Program-made: the position numbers and the translations under genes
Origin: Rubritepida sp.
GTDB taxonomy: Bacteria; Pseudomonadota; Alphaproteobacteria; Acetobacterales; Acetobacteraceae
Reading direction: 5' to 3'
Length of the DNA: 42,503 nucleotides
Assembly (NCBI GenBank): GCA_028291455.1
Contig: JAQGHY010000213.1
Coordinates: 1-42,503 of the forward strand
The notes under the pieces: model-generated
What the model saw: only the letters and a program-made list of their open reading frames with translations
Database searches by the model: none
What the model was told of the DNA's origin: nothing
Shown here: positions 2,898 to 15,268 of the stretch, one piece after another
Numbering within the stretch: the stretch's first letter is position 1
How the letters are laid out: every line of letters starts with the position of its first letter

Positions 2898-2930
2898 GCC
2901 CCCCTAGCGTCATTCGTGGCGCGGCTCAGC
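2893..2930. terminator. inverted repeat between convergent genes, candidate bidirectional terminator
   Basis: GCTGAGCC at 2893-2900 is the exact reverse complement of GGCTCAGC at 2923-2930, leaving a 22-base loop. The left arm contains the TGA of the permease gene and the right arm contains the stop of the minus-strand DUF72 gene. There is no clear U-tract, so the terminator role is inferred from position. Confidence 0.45.
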
Positions 2931-3738
2931 CTTTGCCGAGCTTTTCGATCATCGCCATGGCCGCCAGCGGGTTGCGCTCCTTGAAGCCGCTGATGACGTA
3001 GAGATACACGTCCCGGCCCGCATGCTCCGGCGTCTCCTTGGAGGCGCGTTCGACCCCATCCGGCTCGCCGCCCGCGGCCCATGTCTTGGCGTGCTCCACC
3101 CAGCTCGCGATGGCCTTGCCGGAATAGCCGAGCTTTTCCGTCTCACTGCTTCCCATGATGCGCGCATAGACGAAGGGCGCGGTGACGTCGGCGATCTGAG
3201 GAAAATCGGAATCCGCGGCGAGCACGATGGCGACGCCATGCTCGCGCACCATCGCCACGAAGTCCGGATCGCGGAAGCTCGGATGCCGCACCTCGACGAC
3301 GTGGCGGAGCGCGCGCCCGTCATGGCGCTTGGGGAGCAGCTTCAGAAAACCCTCGAAATCCTTGGGGTCGAACTGCTTGGTCGGCGCGAATTGCCAGTTG
3401 ATCGGACCGAGCTTGTCCTTCAGTTCGGTAATGCCGCTGTTGAGGAAGCGCTCGACGGATTCCCCGGCTTCCGAAAGCACGCGCCGGTTCGTGGTGAAGC
3501 GCGGGCCCTTCAACGAAAAGACGAAGTCGTCGGGAGTCTCGTCATGCCATTTCTGAAAGCTCGTGGGCTTCTGCGAGCCGTAAAAGGTGCCATTGATCTC
3601 AATGGAGCTCAGCTTGCGGCTGGCGTATTCAAGCTCGCGCTTCTGGGTTAGGCCCTCGGGATAGAAGGGGCCGCGCCAGGGCTCGTAGGTCCAGCCGCCG
3701 ACGCCGATGTAGATCTTACCCTTGCCCGTCTTCGGCAT
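2926..3738 (-). CDS. DUF72 (YecE-like) family protein
   Basis: The protein is 270 residues and a full-length member of the DUF72/YecE family, which has a TIM-barrel-like fold and no firmly established activity. The N-terminal hallmark IGVGGWTYEPWRGPFYP (about residues 11-27) is present, followed by the family's FYG, FVFSLKGPRF and VVEVRHPSF segments. The start ATG has AGGGGAG upstream. It is transcribed toward the ABC permease operon and divergently from the Bug gene at 3939. Nothing in the sequence links it to either neighbour. Family identity is firm; function is unknown. Confidence 0.9.
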   Translation of the reverse strand: MPKTGKGKIYIGVGGWTYEPWRGPFYPEGLTQKRELEYASRKLSSIEINGTFYGSQKPTSFQKWHDETPDDFVFSLKGPRFTTNRRVLSEAGESVERFLNSGITELKDKLGPINWQFAPTKQFDPKDFEGFLKLLPKRHDGRALRHVVEVRHPSFRDPDFVAMVREHGVAIVLAADSDFPQIADVTAPFVYARIMGSSETEKLGYSGKAIASWVEHAKTWAAGGEPDGVERASKETPEHAGRDVYLYVISGFKERNPLAAMAMIEKLGKG

Positions 3739-3833
3739 CGCTCGCTCCCCTGGCTGCGCCGGACGCCCGGCTTCTGCTGCGGGTTTAGCGCCGTTCAGGT
3801 CGGGTCGTCACCGCGATCTCTACCACCGATGTG

Positions 3834-3863
3834 TTGCCCCGGACGCGGAGGCGGTCCTATGCT
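3834..3863 (+). promoter_or_regulatory. candidate sigma70-type promoter for the Bug gene
   Basis: TTGCCC at 3834-3839 and TATGCT at 3858-3863 are separated by 18 bases. The expected start of transcription falls just before the inverted repeat at 3878-3893. The arrangement matches that upstream of the crotonase gene, which is the main support. Confidence 0.45.
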
Positions 3864-3877
3864 CCGTTCAATCGGCC

Positions 3878-3893
3878 GACCGACCGTCCGGTC
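3878..3893. promoter_or_regulatory. candidate TetR-family operator (imperfect palindrome)
   Basis: GACCGACCGTCCGGTC is an imperfect 16-base palindrome (12 of 16 positions symmetric) located 45 bases before the Bug start codon and just downstream of the predicted -10 element. It shares the CCGACCG core with the perfect palindrome at 5664-5679, on the other side of the TetR gene. This is a likely binding site for the regulator encoded at 4981-5616. Confidence 0.55.
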
Positions 3894-3938
3894 AGGAACG
3901 CGCGTGGTGAAGCGTCCGAGGGGTAAGGAAACATAGCC

Positions 3939-4943
3939 ATGAAGGCATTTATCCGTACAGCCGGAATTTCGCGCCGCGCCACCATGTTCAGCGCAGTTGG
4001 CTTGGCGGCGCCGGCATTTCTGGCTTCGGCCGCGAAAGCCCAGGCCTTTCCGGCTCGGTCTATCCGCATAGTCGTGCCCTTCGTCCCTGGCGGGGGCTCC
4101 GATATTACGGCCCGCTTCATCGCCGAGCCGCTGGGCGCCGAGCTCGGCCAAAACGTCGTCATCGAGAATCGCGGCGGCGCCGGCGGGACCATCGGCACCA
4201 TGGCGGTCGTCTCATCCCCCGCGGATGGCTACACCCTGCTCTACGGAACGCCGGGCCCGCTTATCACCAATCCGTTCCTGATGCCGAACCTGCCCTATGA
4301 CGCCGAGAAGGATTTCGCCCCGGTCAGCCTGGTCACCCGCGGAGCCTATCTACTGGCGGTGCACAAGGACGTTCCGGTGCGCAGCATGCCGGAACTTCTT
4401 GCCCTTGCCCGTGCGCGGCCGGGCCAGCTGACTTATGCCAGCGCGGGCACCGGTGCCGGCAGTCATCTCGCGGGCGAACTGCTGTGCATGCAGAACGGCA
4501 TCCGCATGACGCATGTGCCCTATCGCGGCACGGCGCAGGCGGTGCAGGACGTGGCGGCGGGGCGCGTCACCATGTCCATCGATACCTATGCCGTGATGAT
4601 CCCGAACATCCAGGCCGGAAACCTGCGGCCGATCGCGGTGACGAGCCTGGAGCGCTTTCCCGAAATCCCGGATGTGCCGACCATTGCCGAGACGCTGCCC
4701 GGCTTCGAAGTCGGCGTCGTCAACTACATCTGCGTCCGCTCCGGCACGCCCACCCCGATTATCCATCGACTCAATCAGGCCTTCGTGAAGGTGCTGGGAC
4801 AGCCGGCTCTGGCCGAGCGCATGAGGGAGGCCGGTAGCAGCGCCCCGCTCTCCAGCACGCCGGAGGAGCTGGCGGATATCCTCCGCACCGAAGCTGCGAA
4901 ATGGGGCCCGGTGATCCGCCGTGCCGGTATCCAGGCGGGTTGA
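3939..4943 (+). CDS. Bug/TctC family tripartite tricarboxylate-type solute-binding protein
   Basis: This is a periplasmic receptor of the Bug family, 334 residues, which binds small carboxylates, amides or amino acids. An N-terminal export signal with an SRR twin-arginine-like motif and a hydrophobic Ala-rich core ends near SAAKAQA (about residue 31). The mature part begins with the family pattern FPARSIRIVVPF, then PGGGSDITAR, NRGGAGGTIG and the ADGYTLL segment. AAGGAA precedes the ATG. No TctA or TctB membrane subunits are nearby, as is common for orphan Bug proteins. It precedes a TetR gene and acyl-CoA catabolic genes, so it may capture their substrate. It is probably controlled by the operator at 3878-3893. 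Confidence 0.92.
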   Translation: MKAFIRTAGISRRATMFSAVGLAAPAFLASAAKAQAFPARSIRIVVPFVPGGGSDITARFIAEPLGAELGQNVVIENRGGAGGTIGTMAVVSSPADGYTLLYGTPGPLITNPFLMPNLPYDAEKDFAPVSLVTRGAYLLAVHKDVPVRSMPELLALARARPGQLTYASAGTGAGSHLAGELLCMQNGIRMTHVPYRGTAQAVQDVAAGRVTMSIDTYAVMIPNIQAGNLRPIAVTSLERFPEIPDVPTIAETLPGFEVGVVNYICVRSGTPTPIIHRLNQAFVKVLGQPALAERMREAGSSAPLSSTPEELADILRTEAAKWGPVIRRAGIQAG

Positions 4944-4980
4944 GGCAATCCATGACGAGGCTTGCGGGTCGTTGAGCGCC

Positions 4981-5616
4981 ATGCAATTTCGGAGCATGGA
5001 CGATGTCGCCGAACTCCTGGAACTCGACAGCGCGGGCCATCCGCTGCAGGGGCGGATCGTGCAGATCTTCCAGGTGGCATGCCGGCTGTTTGCCCAGCGG
5101 GGCTTCGATGGGGTCTCGATGCGCGACATCGCCGCCGAATGCGGAATCTCCAAGGCGACGCTGTATCACTACTTTCCCGACAAGGATTCGATCCTCCGGC
5201 CACTGGCGATGGGCACGACGAAGTCGATCTTCCTGCACGTCTCAAAGCACGACGATGCTACCCAGCCACCACTCGTCCGGCTGCGCAGCTTCCTGGTGGA
5301 GACGGCGAATTTCTTCGAGAAGTTCCGCTGGGCATGGATCGCGGGATCGACCGTCTTCTGGAGCGACCCCAAGGCGCGGGCGCGCAAGGAGCGCATCGGC
5401 TGGCGGGACCGCTATGAGCATCTGCTGCGCGAGATCCTCCAGGCCGGCATCGATGCCGGCGAGATCCGCCAGACGGATGTGAAGATGGCCGGACTCTTCG
5501 TGCTGGGTTCCATCAACTGGATGGCGCGCTGGTACGACCCGGAGGGGCCGCTGACGGCGTCGGACATCGCCGAGCAATTCTGCGACATGATCGTGGAGGG
5601 CATCCGCCGGGGCTGA
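4981..5616 (+). CDS. TetR/AcrR family transcriptional regulator
   Basis: The protein is 211 residues from the ATG at 4981; an in-frame ATG lies at 4996, and GTG or TTG codons further upstream would overlap the Bug gene. The N-terminal DNA-binding domain (about residues 24-70) carries the TetR helix-turn-helix GVSMRDIAAECGISKATLYHYF at 44-65. The C-terminal part is a ligand-binding helical domain resembling those of regulators of acyl-CoA catabolism. The gene sits between the Bug gene and the crotonase operon, each preceded by a CCGACCG-containing inverted repeat. It is therefore probably the local repressor, with an acyl-CoA or related ligand as the likely inducer (inference). Confidence 0.9.
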   Translation: MQFRSMDDVAELLELDSAGHPLQGRIVQIFQVACRLFAQRGFDGVSMRDIAAECGISKATLYHYFPDKDSILRPLAMGTTKSIFLHVSKHDDATQPPLVRLRSFLVETANFFEKFRWAWIAGSTVFWSDPKARARKERIGWRDRYEHLLREILQAGIDAGEIRQTDVKMAGLFVLGSINWMARWYDPEGPLTASDIAEQFCDMIVEGIRRG

Positions 5617-5633
5617 AAGCGCGCCCCGGCGCC

Positions 5634-5662
5634 TTGCACCCGGCCGCGTGCGCCCCTAGGCT
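5634..5662 (+). promoter_or_regulatory. candidate promoter of the crotonase/acyl-CoA operon
   Basis: TTGCAC at 5634-5639 and TAGGCT at 5657-5662 are spaced by 17 bases. Around the -10 the sequence CCTAGGCTCC closely matches CCTATGCTCC upstream of the Bug gene. The perfect palindrome begins two bases downstream, overlapping the expected transcription start. Confidence 0.45.
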
Positions 5663-5663
5663 C

Positions 5664-5679
5664 CCGACCGATCGGTCGG
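5664..5679. promoter_or_regulatory. perfect 16-bp palindrome, candidate TetR operator
   Basis: CCGACCGATCGGTCGG is identical to its own reverse complement. It lies 64 bases before the crotonase start and directly after a promoter-like -10. Palindromes of this type are typical operators of TetR regulators of acyl-CoA pathways. The adjacent tetR gene is the obvious candidate for the binding protein. Confidence 0.7.
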
Positions 5680-5742
5680 CTGGCGTTCGAACGCCGCACG
5701 TTGCAGGATGAAGCCATCCGCTCGCAGGGGAAAAGAACAGAC

Positions 5743-6513
5743 ATGTCATCAGATGTCGTAAAGCTCGAAGTGTCCGGTTACATCGGGCTGATCACCTTGA
5801 ACCGCCCGCCGGTGAATGCGGTGAATGCCGAGGTGCGCGACCGGCTGATCGAGATCTTCGATGCCGCCACCGATCGCGACGATATCCGCGTGCTGGTGCT
5901 GACCGCGCAGGGCAAGATCTTCTGCGCTGGCGCCGACCTCAAGCAGCGGCCGGACCCCACGATCCCGGGCCAGTACTGGCACCACAACCGCACCACCCGC
6001 GAGACCGGCAATGCGATGAAGGAATGCGCCAAGCCGATCATCGCCGCGGTGAACGGCGCGGCGCTGGGCGCGGGTTTCGGGCTGATGGCCGCCTGCGACA
6101 TCATGATGGCCTCGGAGAGCGCCGTCTTCGGCATGCCGGAGATCGATGTCGGCCTGGCCGGCGGCGCGGCTATGATCCATGAGCATTTCGGCAAGTCCTT
6201 CACACGGCGTCTCATGTTCACGGGCGACCGGCTGCCTGCTTCGGAGCTCTATCGCCTGGGCGTGATCGACTCCGTCTGGCCGCAGGATCAACTGGTGCCC
6301 GAGGCGATGAAGATGGCCGCGCGCATCGCCACCAAGAGCCCGCTCGGCATTCGATACGCGAAGAACAGCTGTAACTTCGTCGAGCTCATGTCGCCCAAGG
6401 ACGCCTATCGCTTCGAGCAGAATTTTACCTTCGAGCTCTCCAAGACCGAGGATGCGAAGGAGGCGCGCGAGGCGCAGCTCGAAAAGCGCAAGCCAGTCTT
6501 CAAGGGGCGCTGA
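5743..6513 (+). CDS. enoyl-CoA hydratase/isomerase (crotonase) family protein with only one classical Glu
   Basis: The crotonase-fold acyl-CoA enzyme has 256 residues from the ATG at 5743, with AGGGG upstream. The oxyanion-hole segments are CAGADLK (61-67) and NGAALGAGFG (104-113). Aligned to the classical hydratase motif, the first catalytic Glu (Glu144 in rat mitochondrial hydratase) falls on Gly113. The second (Glu164) is kept as Glu133 in FGMPEI. Retention of only this Glu is seen in delta3-delta2-enoyl-CoA isomerases and some other crotonases, so simple hydratase activity should not be assumed. It is the first gene of an operon with two acyl-CoA dehydrogenases and an acyl-CoA ligase. The exact reaction is unknown. 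Confidence 0.9.
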   Translation: MSSDVVKLEVSGYIGLITLNRPPVNAVNAEVRDRLIEIFDAATDRDDIRVLVLTAQGKIFCAGADLKQRPDPTIPGQYWHHNRTTRETGNAMKECAKPIIAAVNGAALGAGFGLMAACDIMMASESAVFGMPEIDVGLAGGAAMIHEHFGKSFTRRLMFTGDRLPASELYRLGVIDSVWPQDQLVPEAMKMAARIATKSPLGIRYAKNSCNFVELMSPKDAYRFEQNFTFELSKTEDAKEAREAQLEKRKPVFKGR

Positions 6514-6516
6514 TCC

Positions 6517-7695
6517 ATGGATGCCGCCATCGACTACCAGGCGTTCCGGGCTGAGATTAGGGATTTCGCGCTGGCGCATTGCCCGCCGGATATCCGCGCG
6601 GTGGTGGCCAGCTATCGCAAGCTGTCGCGCAAGGTCTGGTACCCGTGGCAGCGCATCCTGTTCGAGCACGGCTGGGGCGCGCCGAGCTGGCCGAAGGAAT
6701 TCGGCGGCACCGGCTGGGATCCGCGGCAAAGGGTGATCTTCGACGAGGTGATGGCGGAATGCGATTGCCCGCCGCAATACCACCACGGGCTGCGGCATCT
6801 CGGCCCCGTCATCATCGAATTCGGCACGCCGGAACAGCAGAAGCGCTTCCTGCCCGGCATCCTCAATGGCGAGGATTGGTGGTGCCAGGGCTATTCCGAG
6901 CCGGGTGCAGGCTCCGACCTCGCCTCGCTGCGCACGACGGCGCGCCGCGAGGACGACCACTATATGGTGGACGGCCAGAAGACCTGGACCTCGCACGCGC
7001 ATGAGTCCGACTGGATGTACACGCTGGTGCGGACGTCCAAGGAGCCAAAGAAGCAGCAGGGCATCAGCCTGCTGCTGATTCCGCTGAATTTACCCGGCAT
7101 CACCATCCGCCCGATCCGCACCATCGATGGCTGGCACCATGTGAACGAGGTGTTTCTCGACGGCGTCCGCGTCCCCGCCGCAAACCGCATCGGTGAAGAA
7201 GGGCAGGGGTGGACCTACGGCAAGTTCCTGCTGGAGCGCGAGCGCCTCGGTGGCGCCAATATCGCGCCGCACCGCAAGGCGCTGGAGCGCGTGCGGGAGC
7301 TGGTCGCAACGGAGCTCGCGGGCGAGGGCCGGCGAGCCGAACGTGAACTGCTGCAGCATCGCCTGCTGCTGGCCGAATCCGAATTGCTCGCCGCCTCCGA
7401 ACTCGGCCGTGAATCGGTCGAGGCGGTGATGCAAGGGAACGCGCTGGGTATGCTGCCCTCGGTGATCAAGCTCGGCACCAGCGTGACCATGCAGACCATC
7501 AGCCAGATCGCGCTGGATGCAGTGGGCGAGCGCTTGGCGCCCCGCTTCCGCCGCGTCGACGGCGCCGGGCCGAACGCGGAGGAGCCGGGCATCGAATGGG
7601 TGCAGAACTACATGTACGCCCGTGTCCGTACGATCTACGGCGGCAGCAGCGAGGTGCAGAAGAACGTCATCGCCAAGCAGCTGTTCGGAATCTGA
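6517..7695 (+). CDS. acyl-CoA dehydrogenase, PimC-like large subunit type
   Basis: This FAD-dependent acyl-CoA dehydrogenase has 392 residues. The FAD/substrate motif YSEPGAGSDLAS (about residues 127-138) matches the family pattern, and the C-terminal signature TIYGGSSEVQKNVIAKQLFG gives the FAD-adenosine contact. At the position where medium-chain dehydrogenases have their catalytic Glu (YEGT), this protein has YGGS. The base must therefore lie elsewhere, as in many FadE/PimC-type proteins. The gene starts three bases after the crotonase stop and is one base from the next dehydrogenase. Two unlike neighbouring dehydrogenases suggest a heteromeric enzyme such as pimeloyl-CoA dehydrogenase PimCD (inference). 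The acyl chain is unknown. Confidence 0.92.
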   Translation: MDAAIDYQAFRAEIRDFALAHCPPDIRAVVASYRKLSRKVWYPWQRILFEHGWGAPSWPKEFGGTGWDPRQRVIFDEVMAECDCPPQYHHGLRHLGPVIIEFGTPEQQKRFLPGILNGEDWWCQGYSEPGAGSDLASLRTTARREDDHYMVDGQKTWTSHAHESDWMYTLVRTSKEPKKQQGISLLLIPLNLPGITIRPIRTIDGWHHVNEVFLDGVRVPAANRIGEEGQGWTYGKFLLERERLGGANIAPHRKALERVRELVATELAGEGRRAERELLQHRLLLAESELLAASELGRESVEAVMQGNALGMLPSVIKLGTSVTMQTISQIALDAVGERLAPRFRRVDGAGPNAEEPGIEWVQNYMYARVRTIYGGSSEVQKNVIAKQLFGI

Positions 7696-7696
7696 G

Positions 7697-8806
7697 ATGA
7701 CCTTCGCCACCACGCTCATCGTTTCGGGCGAGACCTTCGAGATGGCATATCGATTCGGCCAGGTTGCCGAGCGGGAGCTGGCCGGAATCGCCGATGCGGC
7801 TGGGCAGGCCGCCTGTATTGAAAGGCTATGGAACGGCATCGGCGAGCTCGGCTGGATGGGGACCGCCATTCCCGAGGAGGCCGGCGGCGCCGGCGGCGAC
7901 CTCGCCGATCTCGCGGCCATCGCCTCTGGGGCAGGGCGCGCGGGCCTCGCGCTGCCGGTGGCGTCGAGCTGCGGCGTGGTTCCCGCCTTGCTGGCGGGTA
8001 ATCCCGTCCTCCCCGATGTCGCGACGGGGGCCGCGCGCGTCGCCGTCATCCTGCCCGGCGCGGCCCAGGACGAGGATACCGGTGGGCTTCGTATCCGCCT
8101 CCTGAACGATGGACTAACGCTGGACGGCGTGGTCGTCGGCGTAGAGACGCCGCCCAATCCCACCCATGCGCTGGTCGCGGCCGAGGGCGCCGAGCCGATG
8201 CTGCTGCTGATCCCGGCCTCATCGCCCGGAGTTCAGACGGAGCTTTACCAGCGCATCGACGGTCGCCTTGCAGCCGACTGGCACTTCAGCCTCGTAACCG
8301 TCGATTCGGGCTGGATCGTCGCACGCGGGCCGGAGGTGCCGGAGCGCACCGCCGCCGCGCGTGACCTCGGTGCGCTGCTCACCTGCATCGAATGCGTCTC
8401 GGCCATGGGGGCGCTGATCGAGCAGACCATCCAGTACCTGCTGAACCGCGAGCAGTTCGGCGCGCCGCTGGCCACTTACCAGGCCCTGCGCCACCGCGTC
8501 GCGGATATGTATGTGGAATACGAGAACCTGCGCGGCATCACTGCGCGCGCCCTTCGGGCGGCGCAATCCGGCGAACCCTCGTGGCAGGCCATCGCCTTCG
8601 CCAAGTTGCGCCTCGGCGAGGCCGGGCGGGCGGTCGCCGAATCCGCCATCCAATGCCATGGCGGCATGGGCATGACGGAGGAACTGCCGGCGATCCGCCT
8701 TTGCAAGCGGCTCATGATGGCCGAGTTCGAATTCGGCAATCGCGTCTTCCAGGCCGCGCGGCTGCTGGCGGCGGATGGCCGAACCAGCACCGCCGCCGCC
8801 GATTGA
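7697..8806 (+). CDS. acyl-CoA dehydrogenase, PimD-like small subunit type
   Basis: This is the second dehydrogenase, 369 residues from the ATG at 7697, one base after the previous stop. Its N-terminal and middle parts diverge from the family. The middle lacks the usual TEPxAGSD segment, but the C-terminal domain carries REQFGAPLATYQALRHRVAD and QCHGGMGMTEELP, both typical. Missing motifs in one partner and presence in the other are what is seen in paired dehydrogenases whose subunits share FAD sites. It therefore likely forms a complex with the product of 6517-7695. A frame open upstream of 7697 exists but only shadows the preceding gene. Confidence 0.88.
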   Translation: MTFATTLIVSGETFEMAYRFGQVAERELAGIADAAGQAACIERLWNGIGELGWMGTAIPEEAGGAGGDLADLAAIASGAGRAGLALPVASSCGVVPALLAGNPVLPDVATGAARVAVILPGAAQDEDTGGLRIRLLNDGLTLDGVVVGVETPPNPTHALVAAEGAEPMLLLIPASSPGVQTELYQRIDGRLAADWHFSLVTVDSGWIVARGPEVPERTAAARDLGALLTCIECVSAMGALIEQTIQYLLNREQFGAPLATYQALRHRVADMYVEYENLRGITARALRAAQSGEPSWQAIAFAKLRLGEAGRAVAESAIQCHGGMGMTEELPAIRLCKRLMMAEFEFGNRVFQAARLLAADGRTSTAAAD

Positions 8807-8815
8807 AGGCCAGTC

Positions 8816-10894
8816 ATGCACGCGCTCGAGAAGATGTTCCGGCCGAAGTCGGTGGCTGTAATCGGCGCCTCGGGCGACCCGGATAAGCTAGGCGGCCGGA
8901 CGCTCTTTCATATCAAGGAGCTCGGCTACAAGGGCCGCATCTATCCGATCAACGTCTCGAGCAAGGAGGTCCAGGGTCTGCCCGCCTGGCCGAGCGTGGC
9001 CGATCTGCCGGAAGTGCCCGACAGCGCCCTGATCGTGCTGCCTGCGCCGCTGGTGGAACAGGCGCTCGAAGCTTGCGCGGCGAAGGGCATCCTGCATGTG
9101 CAGGTGCTGTCCTCCGGCTTTGCGGAAGAGGGCGGCGAGGGCGTCGCCATGCAGGAGCGCCTGGTCGGGATCGTCCGCCGCAATAAGATGCGTATCACCG
9201 GGCCGAATGCGTTGGGCAGTATCAGCCCGCCGGACGGCTTCTTCGGCACCTTCTCCAGCCTGCTGGCGACGGCCCGCCCGGGGCCGGGCAAGGTGGGCGT
9301 AGCGACGCAGAGCGGGGCCTATGGATCGCACATCTATGCGGTGGCGGGGTTTCGCGGCGTCGGCATCAGCCGCGCCATCGCGACCGGCAACGAGGCTGAC
9401 ATAGATGTGGCCGCCTGCATCGACTATCTGGCGGAGGACCCGGGCACCTCGGTCATCTGCGCCTCGCTGGAGGGCTGCAAGGACGGCGACCGCCTGCGCC
9501 GCGCGCTGCTGAAGGCCGCCGCGGCGCGCAAGCCGGTCATCATCATGAAGGTCGGCAGCACGGCGGAGGGCGCTGCGGCGGCGGCGACGCATACCGGCTC
9601 GCTCGCCGGCGAGGACCGGATCATCGACACGGTGTTCCGCGAATGCGGCGCCTGGCGGGCCTCCTCGATCGAGGAGATGATCGACATTGCCTATGTCTGC
9701 TCCATCGCGCCGCTGCCGCCCTCGCCGGGGGTCGGCATCCTCAGCGTGTCGGGCGGGCTGGGCGTGCTGATGGCGGATGCGGTCATCGGCGCGGGGCTGA
9801 CGGTGCCGCCGATGTCGGCCGAGGTGCTGCGGCGGATCGTCGAGATTCAACCCGCGGCCGGCGGACGGAACCCGATCGACACCACCGCGCAGCTCAACGG
9901 CCGGATGCACATCTTCGAGAGCATCAGCCAGGCGATGATGGAAGGCGCGGAGCTGGGCTCAGTCGTCTTCTACCTCGCGCATCTGGGGCGGAATGTGCTG
10001 CGTTTTCCGCCGTTGGAGAAGGCGCTGGCCGGTCTACGGGAGAACTTTCCGGACCGGCTGGTCGTGGCGGTGATGACGCATGTGGACGAGATCCGGCTGA
10101 AGCTGGAATCCTTGGGCATCCCGGTCTTCGAGGACCCTACCCGCGCGGTGCGCGCAATCGCGGGCGCCGCCCATGTGCGTAGCCTGCAACTGGCGGCCGA
10201 AGCTGTGCCGGATATAGCGCGCGGCGCACCGCTCGACCTTGTCTCCACCAACGAGGCCGGGGCGAAGCAACTGCTGGCGAAGGCCGGCGTGCCCGTCCTG
10301 CCTGAGCGCGTCTGCACCACCGCTCAGAATGCTGCTTCGGCGGCCGCGGCGATGGGCTTCCCGGTCGTCATGAAGATCCTCTCCGACGACATCCCGCACA
10401 AGACGGAGATCGGCGGAGTGTTGCTGAACGTGGTGGATGCAGCCGCAGCCGCCGCCGGCTTCGAGGAACTCATGCGCCGTGCCCGGGCAGCGAAGCCACA
10501 GGCGAGGCTGGATGGCGTGCTCATCGCGCCGATGGTCTCCGGCGGGGTGGAGACAATCATTGGCGTCCAGCGCGACCCGGTCTTCGGGCCAATGGTGATG
10601 TTCGGCCTCGGAGGCGTCTCGGTGGAGCTGTTCAACGACGTCGCCTTCGCCACCGCCCCACTGACGCCCGCCCGCGCGGAGGCGCTGATCGCCTCGGTCC
10701 GGGGCGCTAGACTGCTCGACGGATGGCGTGGCGCGCCGCCCCTCGCCAAGGCGGCGCTGGTCTCAACGCTGTGCATGATTTCGCAGATCGCGGCGGCGCA
10801 TCGGGACGTCATCGAAAGCATTGAAATCAATCCCTTCCTGGTGATGGCGGACGGCGGCTATGCCCTGGATGCGCTGATCGCGATTCGCGGATAG
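8816..10894 (+). CDS. NDP-forming acyl-CoA synthetase (acetate--CoA ligase family)
   Basis: The protein is 692 residues, with alpha and beta parts of the NDP-forming acyl-CoA synthetase fused in one chain. It begins with a Rossmann CoA-binding domain (VAVIGASGDPDKLGG, about residues 13-27). A succinyl-CoA-ligase-like domain follows, containing THTGSLAGED with the probable phospho-His. The C-terminal ATP-grasp domain has FPVVMKILSDDIPHKTEIGG. The enzyme would activate a free carboxylate to its CoA thioester, or run in reverse to gain ATP. It sits downstream of the dehydrogenases, so it probably starts or ends the same pathway. The substrate cannot be assigned; this family also handles aryl and branched acids. 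Confidence 0.92.
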   Translation: MHALEKMFRPKSVAVIGASGDPDKLGGRTLFHIKELGYKGRIYPINVSSKEVQGLPAWPSVADLPEVPDSALIVLPAPLVEQALEACAAKGILHVQVLSSGFAEEGGEGVAMQERLVGIVRRNKMRITGPNALGSISPPDGFFGTFSSLLATARPGPGKVGVATQSGAYGSHIYAVAGFRGVGISRAIATGNEADIDVAACIDYLAEDPGTSVICASLEGCKDGDRLRRALLKAAAARKPVIIMKVGSTAEGAAAAATHTGSLAGEDRIIDTVFRECGAWRASSIEEMIDIAYVCSIAPLPPSPGVGILSVSGGLGVLMADAVIGAGLTVPPMSAEVLRRIVEIQPAAGGRNPIDTTAQLNGRMHIFESISQAMMEGAELGSVVFYLAHLGRNVLRFPPLEKALAGLRENFPDRLVVAVMTHVDEIRLKLESLGIPVFEDPTRAVRAIAGAAHVRSLQLAAEAVPDIARGAPLDLVSTNEAGAKQLLAKAGVPVLPERVCTTAQNAASAAAAMGFPVVMKILSDDIPHKTEIGGVLLNVVDAAAAAAGFEELMRRARAAKPQARLDGVLIAPMVSGGVETIIGVQRDPVFGPMVMFGLGGVSVELFNDVAFATAPLTPARAEALIASVRGARLLDGWRGAPPLAKAALVSTLCMISQIAAAHRDVIESIEINPFLVMADGGYALDALIAIRG

Positions 10895-13341: not shown

Positions 13342-14031
13342 CTAAGCCGCCATGGCGGGCACGCCGCGGGCGAGGCCGTCATAGAGATCGAGCATGCGCT
13401 CGCGCCAGGCGTGGATGGGATCGCTGCCTTCGAGCAGTTGTATCGGGCTGACGACACGGGCCCACATGAACGCGCCGAAGATGATGTAGTCCGCGTAGTC
13501 GGGCTCGTCGCCGCCCATGAAGGCCTGCTGCATCAGGACCGCGCGCAGCGGCTGGAGGCTGGCGCGGAACTCCGGCAGGCGGGCCTCGCGATCCGCCGTC
13601 ACCTGCGCGAGCGGCATGCCGAACCGCTTCTCCCGGCTCTGGAGGAAATAGGCGCGTTCGTCTTCTCCCAGCAGCGCGGGAATATCGGAGACGATGAGCT
13701 TAGCAATCCCCGCATGCAGCGCCCGATCCGCCCAGGAGGCGATGAAGCGCAGGCTCGCCGGCGTGCCGCGGAACAGGGCAGGGCGGTCGGGATAGGCGCG
13801 GTCGAGATGCTCGGCGATGTCCCAGCTGTCGGGCACCACCTGATCGCCATCCACCAGCACCGGCACGGTCTTGGAGTTGGCGAAGGCGAGGGCGTCGTTC
13901 TGCGTGAAGCGCCACGGCACCACCTCGGCGTCGAGGCCCTTATGGGCGAGCGCCATGCGGCTGCGCCAGCAATAGGGGCTGAAGCGGCGCTCGGCATCGG
14001 TCCCGCAGAGTTCGAAGAGCTTGCGTGCCAT
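13342..14031 (-). CDS. glutathione S-transferase family protein
   Basis: The 229-residue GST has an N-terminal thioredoxin-fold domain (about residues 3-85) with FSPYCWRSRMALAHKGL at 17-33, a TVPVLVDG cis-proline segment and PDSWDIAEHLD, the glutathione gamma-glutamyl site. The C-terminal half is the helical domain. Cys21 in the SPYCW segment sits where some bacterial GSTs, including beta-etherase-like and omega-like ones, have catalytic residues. The start codon lies three bases after the stop of a 16-codon ORF (14035-14085) that carries the best Shine-Dalgarno in the region. Translation may therefore depend on that leader. Substrate unknown. Confidence 0.9.
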   Translation of the reverse strand: MARKLFELCGTDAERRFSPYCWRSRMALAHKGLDAEVVPWRFTQNDALAFANSKTVPVLVDGDQVVPDSWDIAEHLDRAYPDRPALFRGTPASLRFIASWADRALHAGIAKLIVSDIPALLGEDERAYFLQSREKRFGMPLAQVTADREARLPEFRASLQPLRAVLMQQAFMGGDEPDYADYIIFGAFMWARVVSPIQLLEGSDPIHAWRERMLDLYDGLARGVPAMAA

Positions 14032-14034
14032 GGC

Positions 14035-14085
14035 TCAGCGTGCCCCTTCCGGGAGCGGCGTGGTCCAGCGGTGCGGATCGGTCAT
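14035..14085 (-). CDS. 16-residue leader ORF upstream of the GST gene
   Basis: On the minus strand an ATG at 14085 opens a 16-codon frame, MTDPHRWTTPLPEGAR, ending in TGA three bases before the GST start. It is preceded by AAGGAGGA (14094-14101) at an ideal 8-base spacing, so ribosomes very likely start here. The GST start itself has only a more distant GGAAGGGG inside this ORF. The peptide may be a real small protein or serve only to couple translation into GST. I know no family for it. Confidence 0.55.
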   Translation of the reverse strand: MTDPHRWTTPLPEGAR

Positions 14086-14253
14086 GTTCGATATCCTCCT
14101 TGATGTGGCCGAGCGCCTGGCGCGCGTCGTCCCGCAGCGGCGCCATGAAACACCAGATTGCTCGGCAAGTGACCGGCGGGGTGGCGAAAATATCCGCATT
14201 CCGCCCTCTTCGCCGTTGCGGCCCAGCCGAAACCGGCCACCGAGGCATTGCCC

Positions 14254-14263
14254 GTTCCGGAAC
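14254..14263. promoter_or_regulatory. 10-bp palindrome upstream of the second Bug gene
   Basis: GTTCCGGAAC is self-complementary and lies about 40 bases before the Bug start, in the divergent region between the GST leader and the Bug gene. It could be an operator. The region 14086-14302 shows nothing else that I can support. Confidence 0.25.
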
Positions 14264-14302
14264 ACTGCTTCACCGTCAGGCCACGAACGGAGCGAGTACT
14301 TC

Positions 14303-15268
14303 ATGCAGAACGGAGCCATCGCGCGGCGCGCGGCTCTTGGCCTCGCGGCTGCCGCGGGCCTTGCCCGAGCCGCCGCGGCCCAGTCCTGGCCGGCTCGCTC
14401 GATCCGCCTGATCGTGCCGTTCCCACCCGGCGGCGGCGTGGACCTCACGGCGCGGCTGCTGGCGGAACCGCTCGGCCGGGCGCTGGGGCAGTCCGTGGTG
14501 GTGGAGAATCGCGGCGGCGCCGGTGGCGTGATCGGCGTCGAGGCGCTCTCGCACGCGGCACCCGACGGCTACACGCTTTGCCTGACCGGTGCGGGCACGA
14601 TCACCGCCGGGCCGCATCTGCGGCAGCTTCCCTATGAGCCCATGGCGCTCGCGCATATCACGCGGCTCGTGCGCATGCCCTTCATCGTGGCGGTGCGGTC
14701 GGATCTGCCGGCGACGACGCTGCCGGAATTCCTGGCCTTGGCGCGACAGGGCAACCTTCGCTACGCGAGCGGCGGCGCGGGCACCAGCCAGCATCTGACG
14801 GGCGAACTCTTCAACCAGATGGCCGGCGTGCGGATCGAGCATGTGCCGTATCGCGGCACCGGCCCGGCGCTGAACGACCTCGCGGCGAAGGTGGTCGATG
14901 TCTATTACGGCGATCCCGCGACGCTGACGCTCGTGAATGGCGGGCAGGCCCGTGCCATGGCCGTCACCTCGCCCGGGCGCTGGCCGCTGCTGCCGCAGAC
15001 GCCGGCCGTCAGCGAGGCGGTGCCCGGCTATGCGTCGGAGAACTGGTACGGGCTGGTAGCGCCGGCCGGCACGCCCGAGCCGATCCTCGATACCCTCTCG
15101 GCCCAGGTCCTGCGCGTGCTTGCGGACCCCGAATGGAAGCGCCGATTCGACGAGGCCGGGCTGCACCCGGCAACCATGTCGCGCGCGGATTACGTCGCCT
15201 TCCTTCGCGACGACAGCGAGGTCTGGGCCCGTGTGGTCCGGGCCGGAAACATCAGGATCACGGATTAG
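14303..15268 (+). CDS. Bug/TctC family solute-binding protein
   Basis: This is a second orphan tripartite-tricarboxylate-type receptor, 321 residues from the ATG at 14303. The N-terminal signal (about residues 1-26) has an ARR pair and an Ala/Leu core ending AAAAQS. It is followed by WPARSIRLIVPFPPGGG, NRGGAGGVIG and PDGYTLC, the family hallmarks. The stop TAG abuts the ATG of the hydantoinase A gene, so the receptor and HyuAB are likely one operon. The ligand may then be a cyclic amide such as a hydantoin or 5-oxoproline-like compound, though HyuAB homologues also include carboxylases. No TctAB genes are visible. An open frame upstream of 14303 has no signal-peptide sense and is rejected. 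Confidence 0.9.
   Translation: MQNGAIARRAALGLAAAAGLARAAAAQSWPARSIRLIVPFPPGGGVDLTARLLAEPLGRALGQSVVVENRGGAGGVIGVEALSHAAPDGYTLCLTGAGTITAGPHLRQLPYEPMALAHITRLVRMPFIVAVRSDLPATTLPEFLALARQGNLRYASGGAGTSQHLTGELFNQMAGVRIEHVPYRGTGPALNDLAAKVVDVYYGDPATLTLVNGGQARAMAVTSPGRWPLLPQTPAVSEAVPGYASENWYGLVAPAGTPEPILDTLSAQVLRVLADPEWKRRFDEAGLHPATMSRADYVAFLRDDSEVWARVVRAGNIRITD

Follow-up and report, generated by a model that had tools for sequence, protein, structure and literature searches.

Candidate operators of a PfmR-like TetR repressor at a Bug receptor promoter and an acyl-CoA catabolism promoter in Rubritepida sp.

In the 42,503-nucleotide stretch of Rubritepida sp. DNA examined in this study (contig JAQGHY010000213.1, referred to in full as the window), two short palindromes stand on either side of a gene for a TetR-family regulator, one at the promoter of a Bug-type periplasmic receptor gene and the other at the promoter of a crotonase gene. 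Judged from the sequence, these palindromes are very probably operators for the TetR protein whose gene they flank; this protein would be an autoregulated, PfmR-like repressor of both the Bug-tetR unit and the crotonase operon. The proposal of a single TetR repressor for import and degradation, made in an earlier reading of the window (the original prediction), is strongly supported by evidence that is mainly comparative: beyond the sites themselves, they recur at orthologous loci, they are found far more often in genomes that carry this tetR, and the regulator is akin to PfmR, its closest relative of solved structure, which has the same operator core.

Promoter-operator modules in the window

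Each palindrome lies just downstream of a promoter-like pair of hexamers, and the two modules comprise the following features:

3834-3863, + strand: promoter-like -35/-10 of the Bug-tetR unit; TTGCCC (3834-3839), 18 bases, TATGCT (3858-3863)
3880-3895, + strand: operator A (predicted), CCGACCGTCCGGTCAG; core GACCGTCCGGTC at 3882-3893, perfect 5+5 repeat GACCG-TC-CGGTC
5634-5662, + strand: promoter-like -35/-10 of the crotonase operon; TTGCAC (5634-5639), 17 bases, TAGGCT (5657-5662)
5664-5679, + strand: operator B (predicted), CCGACCGATCGGTCGG, a perfect palindrome one base after the -10; core at 5666-5677

The hexamers with their spacings, the stretch shared around the -10 (CCTATGCTCC at 3856-3865 and CCTAGGCTCC at 5655-5664) and the perfect palindrome can all be read directly in the sequence as originally described. 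The imperfect palindrome GACCGACCGTCCGGTC reported at 3878-3893 is also present, but its register is 4 bases off that of the second site, and the matching register is 3880-3895. The core common to both promoters is GACCGNNCGGTC, with the centre TC at 3882-3893 and the centre AT at 5666-5677, where it starts after 3 bases past the crotonase -10 hexamer. Two exact copies of this core occur in the 42.5-kb window, compared to a mean of 0.19 in shuffled versions, and 3 of 100 shuffles reach two.

The source genome (4.84 Mb, 356 contigs, completeness 89.8%; C109 is the window) was also scanned for ACCGWWCGGTY, giving seven matches at four places, one of which is operator B. At the three remaining places (C141, C200 and C227) the matches fall within or next to mechanical reading frames, with no clear promoter site among them, while other exact 14-mers in this genome (C112, C285 and C332) fall inside reading frames. 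A third candidate site, GACCGAGCGGTC (G000:C226:2304-2317; L178, L279), precedes a gene whose protein starts MAHAGLKFGIFLAPFHRLGDN and which we take to resemble a luciferase-type monooxygenase. The surrounding 24-mer is also present without change in G012 and with one mismatch in G007, which makes 3 of the 6 genus genomes that carry tetR; in the 15 non-carriers it is absent even when up to three mismatches are allowed.

Conservation at orthologous promoters

Conservation at orthologous loci had been chosen beforehand as the test on which the original prediction could fall, and the sites were found to recur at orthologous promoters. From 80 related loci, the best 17 (L031-L047, 55-89% identity) were studied closely, and L048-L053 were used for gene content and exact cores only. 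The crotonase gene is present in 10 of 18 loci (the window, L031, L033-L038, L042 and L043; 72-86% identity), and in each of the ten a palindromic core lies no more than 110 bases upstream of it. Seven of these cores are exact, two have one mismatch (L036 and L042), and that of L035, AACCGATCGGTT (AACC..GGTT), has two mismatches, an identical change in each half-site; L033 and L034 hardly differ in this upstream stretch and do not count as independent. The per-locus chance of a core with at most one mismatch is 0.006-0.024, based on 500 dinucleotide shuffles of the upstream region. With the ten loci anchored on the core, which favours core columns and not promoter columns, mean identity is 9.3 of 10 in the operator and 8.1 in the -10 region compared to 4.8-4.9 in the distant flanks. 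The -35 TTGC is kept in 8-9 of these 10 loci at each base, and the -10 keeps its first T in 10 and its A in 9.

On the Bug side, the 16 letters of operator A are identical in L031 and L032, and TTGC, 17-18 bases and TATGC occupy the corresponding position in L031, L032, L036 and L037, though not in L035. The core starts 10-18 bases after the TATGC-type -10 in the window and in those four loci. An SBP5-type receptor gene is divergent from Bug in L031, L035, L036 and L037 (identified with Pfam in L031, and in the other three by 72-78% likeness to the L031 gene), and a second site faces it. An exact core lies upstream of SBP5 orthologues (69-100% identity) in all four genus genomes, including G011 and G016, where the gene is not linked to tetR; at the 26 other SBP5-like loci examined (30 loci were taken from 90-odd matches), no core has fewer than two mismatches. 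The Bug gene of the window has a DUF72 gene as its neighbor, and no core with up to two mismatches was found between 3739 and 3875. In L031:3-4976, a DUF72 gene (81%) and an SBP5 receptor gene with its own operator both lie on the far side of Bug; compared to this locus, the window lacks the SBP5 gene and its operator beside Bug, as if the two had been lost together.

Loci with other gene orders serve as natural tests of what the site belongs to. Bug runs into the crotonase gene with a gap of approximately 31 bases in G056 (L182/L213), G180 (L215), G301 (L210), G330 (L211) and G352 (L212), and the sites there stand only at the Bug and divergent SBP5 promoters. In L043 (the L230 record), tetR is not upstream of the crotonase gene, which keeps a site of its own, and Bug has another. 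In L032 (Roseococcus pinisoli, G012:C8), the site before tetR is kept with no close Bug orthologue beside tetR, and no crotonase was found in the genome at E 1e-60; a site kept without either partner fits autoregulation. As read from these arrangements, the operator tracks the promoter. Since operator B lies 47 bases past the tetR stop codon and is a GC-rich, perfect inverted repeat, it could in principle form a terminator hairpin or an RNA element where tetR ends, with operator A a chance resemblance, but this explanation is extremely improbable: operator B has no T run, its position is fixed relative to the -10, and the site stays before the crotonase gene in L043 and before unlinked SBP5 and Bug genes. 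The terminator reading of operator B was rejected, as a terminator scan found none in 3700-5800 and the site follows promoters in rearranged loci.

Co-occurrence of the sites with tetR

The strict 16-mer CCGACCGNNCGGTCGG is present in five of the six genus genomes that carry tetR and in 0 of the 15 that do not. The wider family set consists of 299 genomes, 26 of which carry tetR (E <=1e-40); the counts of tetR carriers, of the strict 16-mer and of its A/T-centered form are assumed to rest on this one set, as the listed genome handles agree. The strict 16-mer is found in 16 of the 26 carriers compared to 39 of the 273 other genomes, and its A/T-centered form in 13 of 26 compared to 3 of 273 (G119, G158 and G264; Fisher p 2.7e-13, a value that overstates independence because the genomes are related). 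A reversed control pattern has matches in 6 of the 299 (G131, G157, G166, G217, G242 and G316). By coordinates, in every one of the 13 carriers that have the A/T-centered 16-mer, at least one copy lies no farther than 7 kb from tetR.

It is also conceivable that the sites are operators of another TetR-family protein of the same specificity, either a paralogue or a PaaR-type regulator. Operators can be shared among regulators, as excerpts of published work describe near-identical palindromes as the targets of PfmR and of Burkholderia PaaR, and Roseomonas oleicola (L045) has a second tetR with its own overlapping sites. However, the next TetR match in the genome of the window has 44% identity over only 50 residues (E 4e-7), and the sites co-occur with the window-type tetR at the short distances given above, which makes a different regulator unlikely and leaves the TetR protein encoded between the two sites as the preferred candidate. 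The second tetR of L045 (also L204; 59%) lies approximately 7 kb from the first, and two overlapping cores, CGACCGACCGGTCGGTCG, are found just downstream of it; the gene after these cores presumably encodes a CoA-transferase (CoA, coenzyme A).

Further places with the 16-mer were identified in G007 (one), G011 (four) and G016 (three), and all eight precede Bug, SBP5, acyl-CoA dehydrogenase pair or FadB-type genes (six assigned with Pfam and two by likeness). To judge by these sites, the regulon seems to be larger in G007, G011 and G016 than in the genome of the window. In the part of the matches that was examined, further exact 14-mers in G007, G011 and G012 (L255, L256, L259-L261) had no nameable target. 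The broader proposal, that in Roseococcus/Sabulicella and their relatives one PfmR-like repressor controls several Bug receptors, one SBP5 receptor, acyl-CoA dehydrogenases and a FadB-type enzyme at loci spread over the genome, with operators gained and lost as promoters are rearranged, has in our estimation an even chance of being correct.

Evidence against control by TetR

Besides the relatedness of the genomes, several observations weigh against the two palindromes being TetR operators. Ten of the 26 carriers lack the strict 16-mer, although five of them (G031, G035, G165, G261 and G266) have CT- or TT-flanked cores. Among the 17 closely studied loci, five (L039, L043, L044, L046 and L047) have no core with up to one mismatch from -2200 to +1200 of tetR, the site of L043 being 5.8 kb away from tetR, and the sole one-mismatch match of L040 is unconvincing, as it lies 35 bases before the matched tetR stretch and inside an open frame; the recognition segment of the protein is nevertheless the same in all six of these loci. 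In L035, the Bug site is followed downstream by a -10-like TAGCAT, and the geometry of promoter and site therefore differs between loci. A scan for E. coli-type sigma-70 promoters found none at threshold in 3700-5800. In the window, the looser 16-mer with up to three mismatches is not enriched (9 compared to 7.05 expected), so in-window statistics alone are weak for the imperfect site, and the 14-mer with up to one mismatch shows no enrichment across the genome (65 and 67 matches compared to 151 and 132 for the reversed control).

The last two counts illustrate how often GC-rich DNA yields such strings, and they would fit the view that the sites are chance palindromes, conserved through common descent and base composition alone. 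That view is nonetheless very unlikely to be correct, as the sites persist while their surroundings drift, L035 carries the same change in both half-sites, and the 16-mer, which in the genus is also found at unlinked promoters, is confined there to genomes with the window-type tetR. At the level of sequence, the observation is confirmed as real and above chance, and it is conservation in relatives that makes it solid.

The TetR protein and its recognition segment

The regulator is a member of the TetR family, combining TetR_N (PF00440; E 1.1e-19, 70.4 bits compared to a cut-off of 24) with TetR_C_24 (PF17932; E 4.7e-24, 85.3 bits compared to a cut-off of 26.4), while NCBIfam models match it under their cut-offs only. 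Its nearest named relatives are from Roseococcus and other Acetobacteraceae. The best relative of solved structure is 3VPR (3vpr_A, E 8.9e-33), ahead of the next at E 8.3e-21, with 3DCF and KstR2 following, and the recognition segment reads SKATLYHYF in the window protein compared to SKAALYHHF in 3VPR. All compared rows of at least 55% identity keep SKATLYHYF, some with HH for HY. Ten rows of 44-51% identity have SKSLLYHHF or SKALLYHHF; seven of these have a site near tetR and three (L199, L203 and L207) have none. Four of the seven sites are exact CTGACCGNNCGGTCAG (L119, L200, L201 and L202; tetR 44-48% identity), and that of L205 has the CC flank. The SKSLL segment pairs with CT/AG flanks and SKATL with CC/GG, L205 being an exception, a pattern seen in few lineages that descent alone may explain.

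Proposed control of uptake and breakdown

In the proposed mechanism, a TetR dimer would bind GACCGNNCGGTC with its CC/GG flanks just downstream of each -10, thereby blocking transcription. Operator A would shut off the Bug receptor gene together with tetR, making that unit autoregulatory, and operator B would shut off the operon of the crotonase, two acyl-CoA dehydrogenases and the acyl-CoA ligase. Because the repressor would cover the region where transcription starts at either promoter, the Bug-tetR unit would be autoregulated and uptake coupled to breakdown. The original prediction had left out that tetR follows Bug directly on the same strand, with a gap of 37 bases; since it does, the two genes may be transcribed together and the Bug site probably doubles as the autoregulatory site of tetR. 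Release of the repressor would most likely be brought about by a substrate-derived CoA thioester, in which case import and breakdown of one carboxylic acid would be switched on together. By analogy with PaaR (PMC9493321) and MbdR (PMC4424350), as described in excerpts of these papers, the probable inducer is the CoA thioester that the ligase encoded at 8816-10894 produces.

Gene content of the locus

The genes on either side of the two modules are as follows:

2926-3738, - strand: DUF72 gene, next to Bug in the window
3939-4943, + strand: Bug/TctC-type periplasmic solute-binding receptor (Pfam TctC, E 1.3e-59)
approximately 4981-5616, + strand: TetR-family regulator (TetR_N and TetR_C_24), the proposed repressor; reading frame open from GTG 4921, start codon approximate
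5743-6513, + strand: crotonase (enoyl-CoA hydratase/isomerase; Pfam ECH_1, E 2.5e-51; NF005073, E 6.3e-117, above its cut-off)
6517-7695, + strand: acyl-CoA dehydrogenase, PimC-like (TIGR03204, 319.6 bits, under its cut-off of 623.85)
7697-8806, + strand: acyl-CoA dehydrogenase, PimD-like (TIGR03203, 106.3 bits, under its cut-off of 652.7)
8816-10894, + strand: NDP-forming acyl-CoA ligase (Pfam CoA_binding, Succ_CoA_lig and ATP-grasp; NCBIfam equivalogs under their cut-offs)

The window also contains a second Bug-type receptor reading frame at 14021-15268, 44% like relatives of the first family member (by tblastn only), and, divergent from it, a beta-etherase-like glutathione transferase at 13342-14031 (168 bits, under the cut-off). 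The exact-core scan of the window found no operator core near either of them.

Implications for receptor function

Bug receptors are very numerous, and to our knowledge most have no known substrate. Being readable from sequence, an operator of this kind connects individual Bug and SBP5 receptors with one CoA-dependent pathway, and identifying which CoA thioester releases the repressor would point to the substrate of the receptor. If the multi-locus regulon proposed above is real, many orphan Bug receptors could be assigned to substrates through a shared acyl-CoA inducer. A literature search, mostly at title level, on the operator with TetR/acyl-CoA, on a Bug/TetR regulon and on PfmR found no account of this system.

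Comparison with known systems

The TetR repressor KstR2 (4W1U, 4W97) gives a near full-length match to the window protein (E 3.5e-19). Its operator differs, and its ligand is a steroid-derived CoA thioester. MbdR of Azoarcus sp. CIB is likewise a TetR repressor, described in excerpts of PMC4424350 as having 3-methylbenzoyl-CoA as inducer and several operators, including one at its own promoter, with the operator placed over the start site; unlike the sites in the window, its operator is ATACN10GTAT. PaaR of Burkholderia cenocepacia, according to excerpts of PMC9493321, is a TetR repressor with the operator ACCGACCGGTCGGTT at several catabolic promoters and is released by a pathway intermediate, 'compound II', while a title cited in the same paper names phenylacetyl-CoA for the Thermus PaaR. 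PaaR governs phenylacetate (paa) genes, whereas the window operon encodes a crotonase, two acyl-CoA dehydrogenases and a ligase; control of paa genes is not seen at this locus, as no phenylacetyl-CoA oxygenase was found among the scanned neighbor proteins, paa genes elsewhere in the genome not having been sought.

The closest counterpart is PfmR (TTHB023) of Thermus thermophilus HB8, the protein of structure 3VPR as identified in an excerpt of PMC10636190. Excerpts of PMC7022988 describe the selected consensus as CTGACCGATCGGTCAG, bound with a dissociation constant (KD) of 2.1 nM that one change in the center raises to 59.5 nM (~28-fold), and place two sites before the pfmR gene and acyl-CoA dehydrogenase genes after it in the operon. 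Both PfmR and the window protein are TetR repressors, proposed as such in the latter case, with the same 12-base core, and the crotonase core is contained in the consensus letter for letter. Operator B agrees with the degenerate PfmR consensus at all 16 positions and operator A at 15 of them. A search of the window with this consensus gave four matches compared to 0.68 expected, two of them being an unrelated one-mismatch site (33411) and an overlapping register (3876). The stronger site that the original prediction assigned to the degradation operon may be inferred by analogy with PfmR, from the better fit of operator B and the effect of a center change. The sites stand at promoters that would fit a PfmR-type combination of autoregulation and acyl-CoA targets. 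The window sites differ in having CC/GG flanks where the excerpts give CT/AG for PfmR, and the predicted regulon of the window-type protein differs in including Bug and SBP5 receptors and in belonging to an alphaproteobacterium, which extends the PfmR-type operator to that class. The regulatory pair is real and conserved and, as a PfmR-like TetR regulon, ordinary in kind; what is new is the membership of the regulon, which joins Bug receptors with acyl-CoA catabolism.

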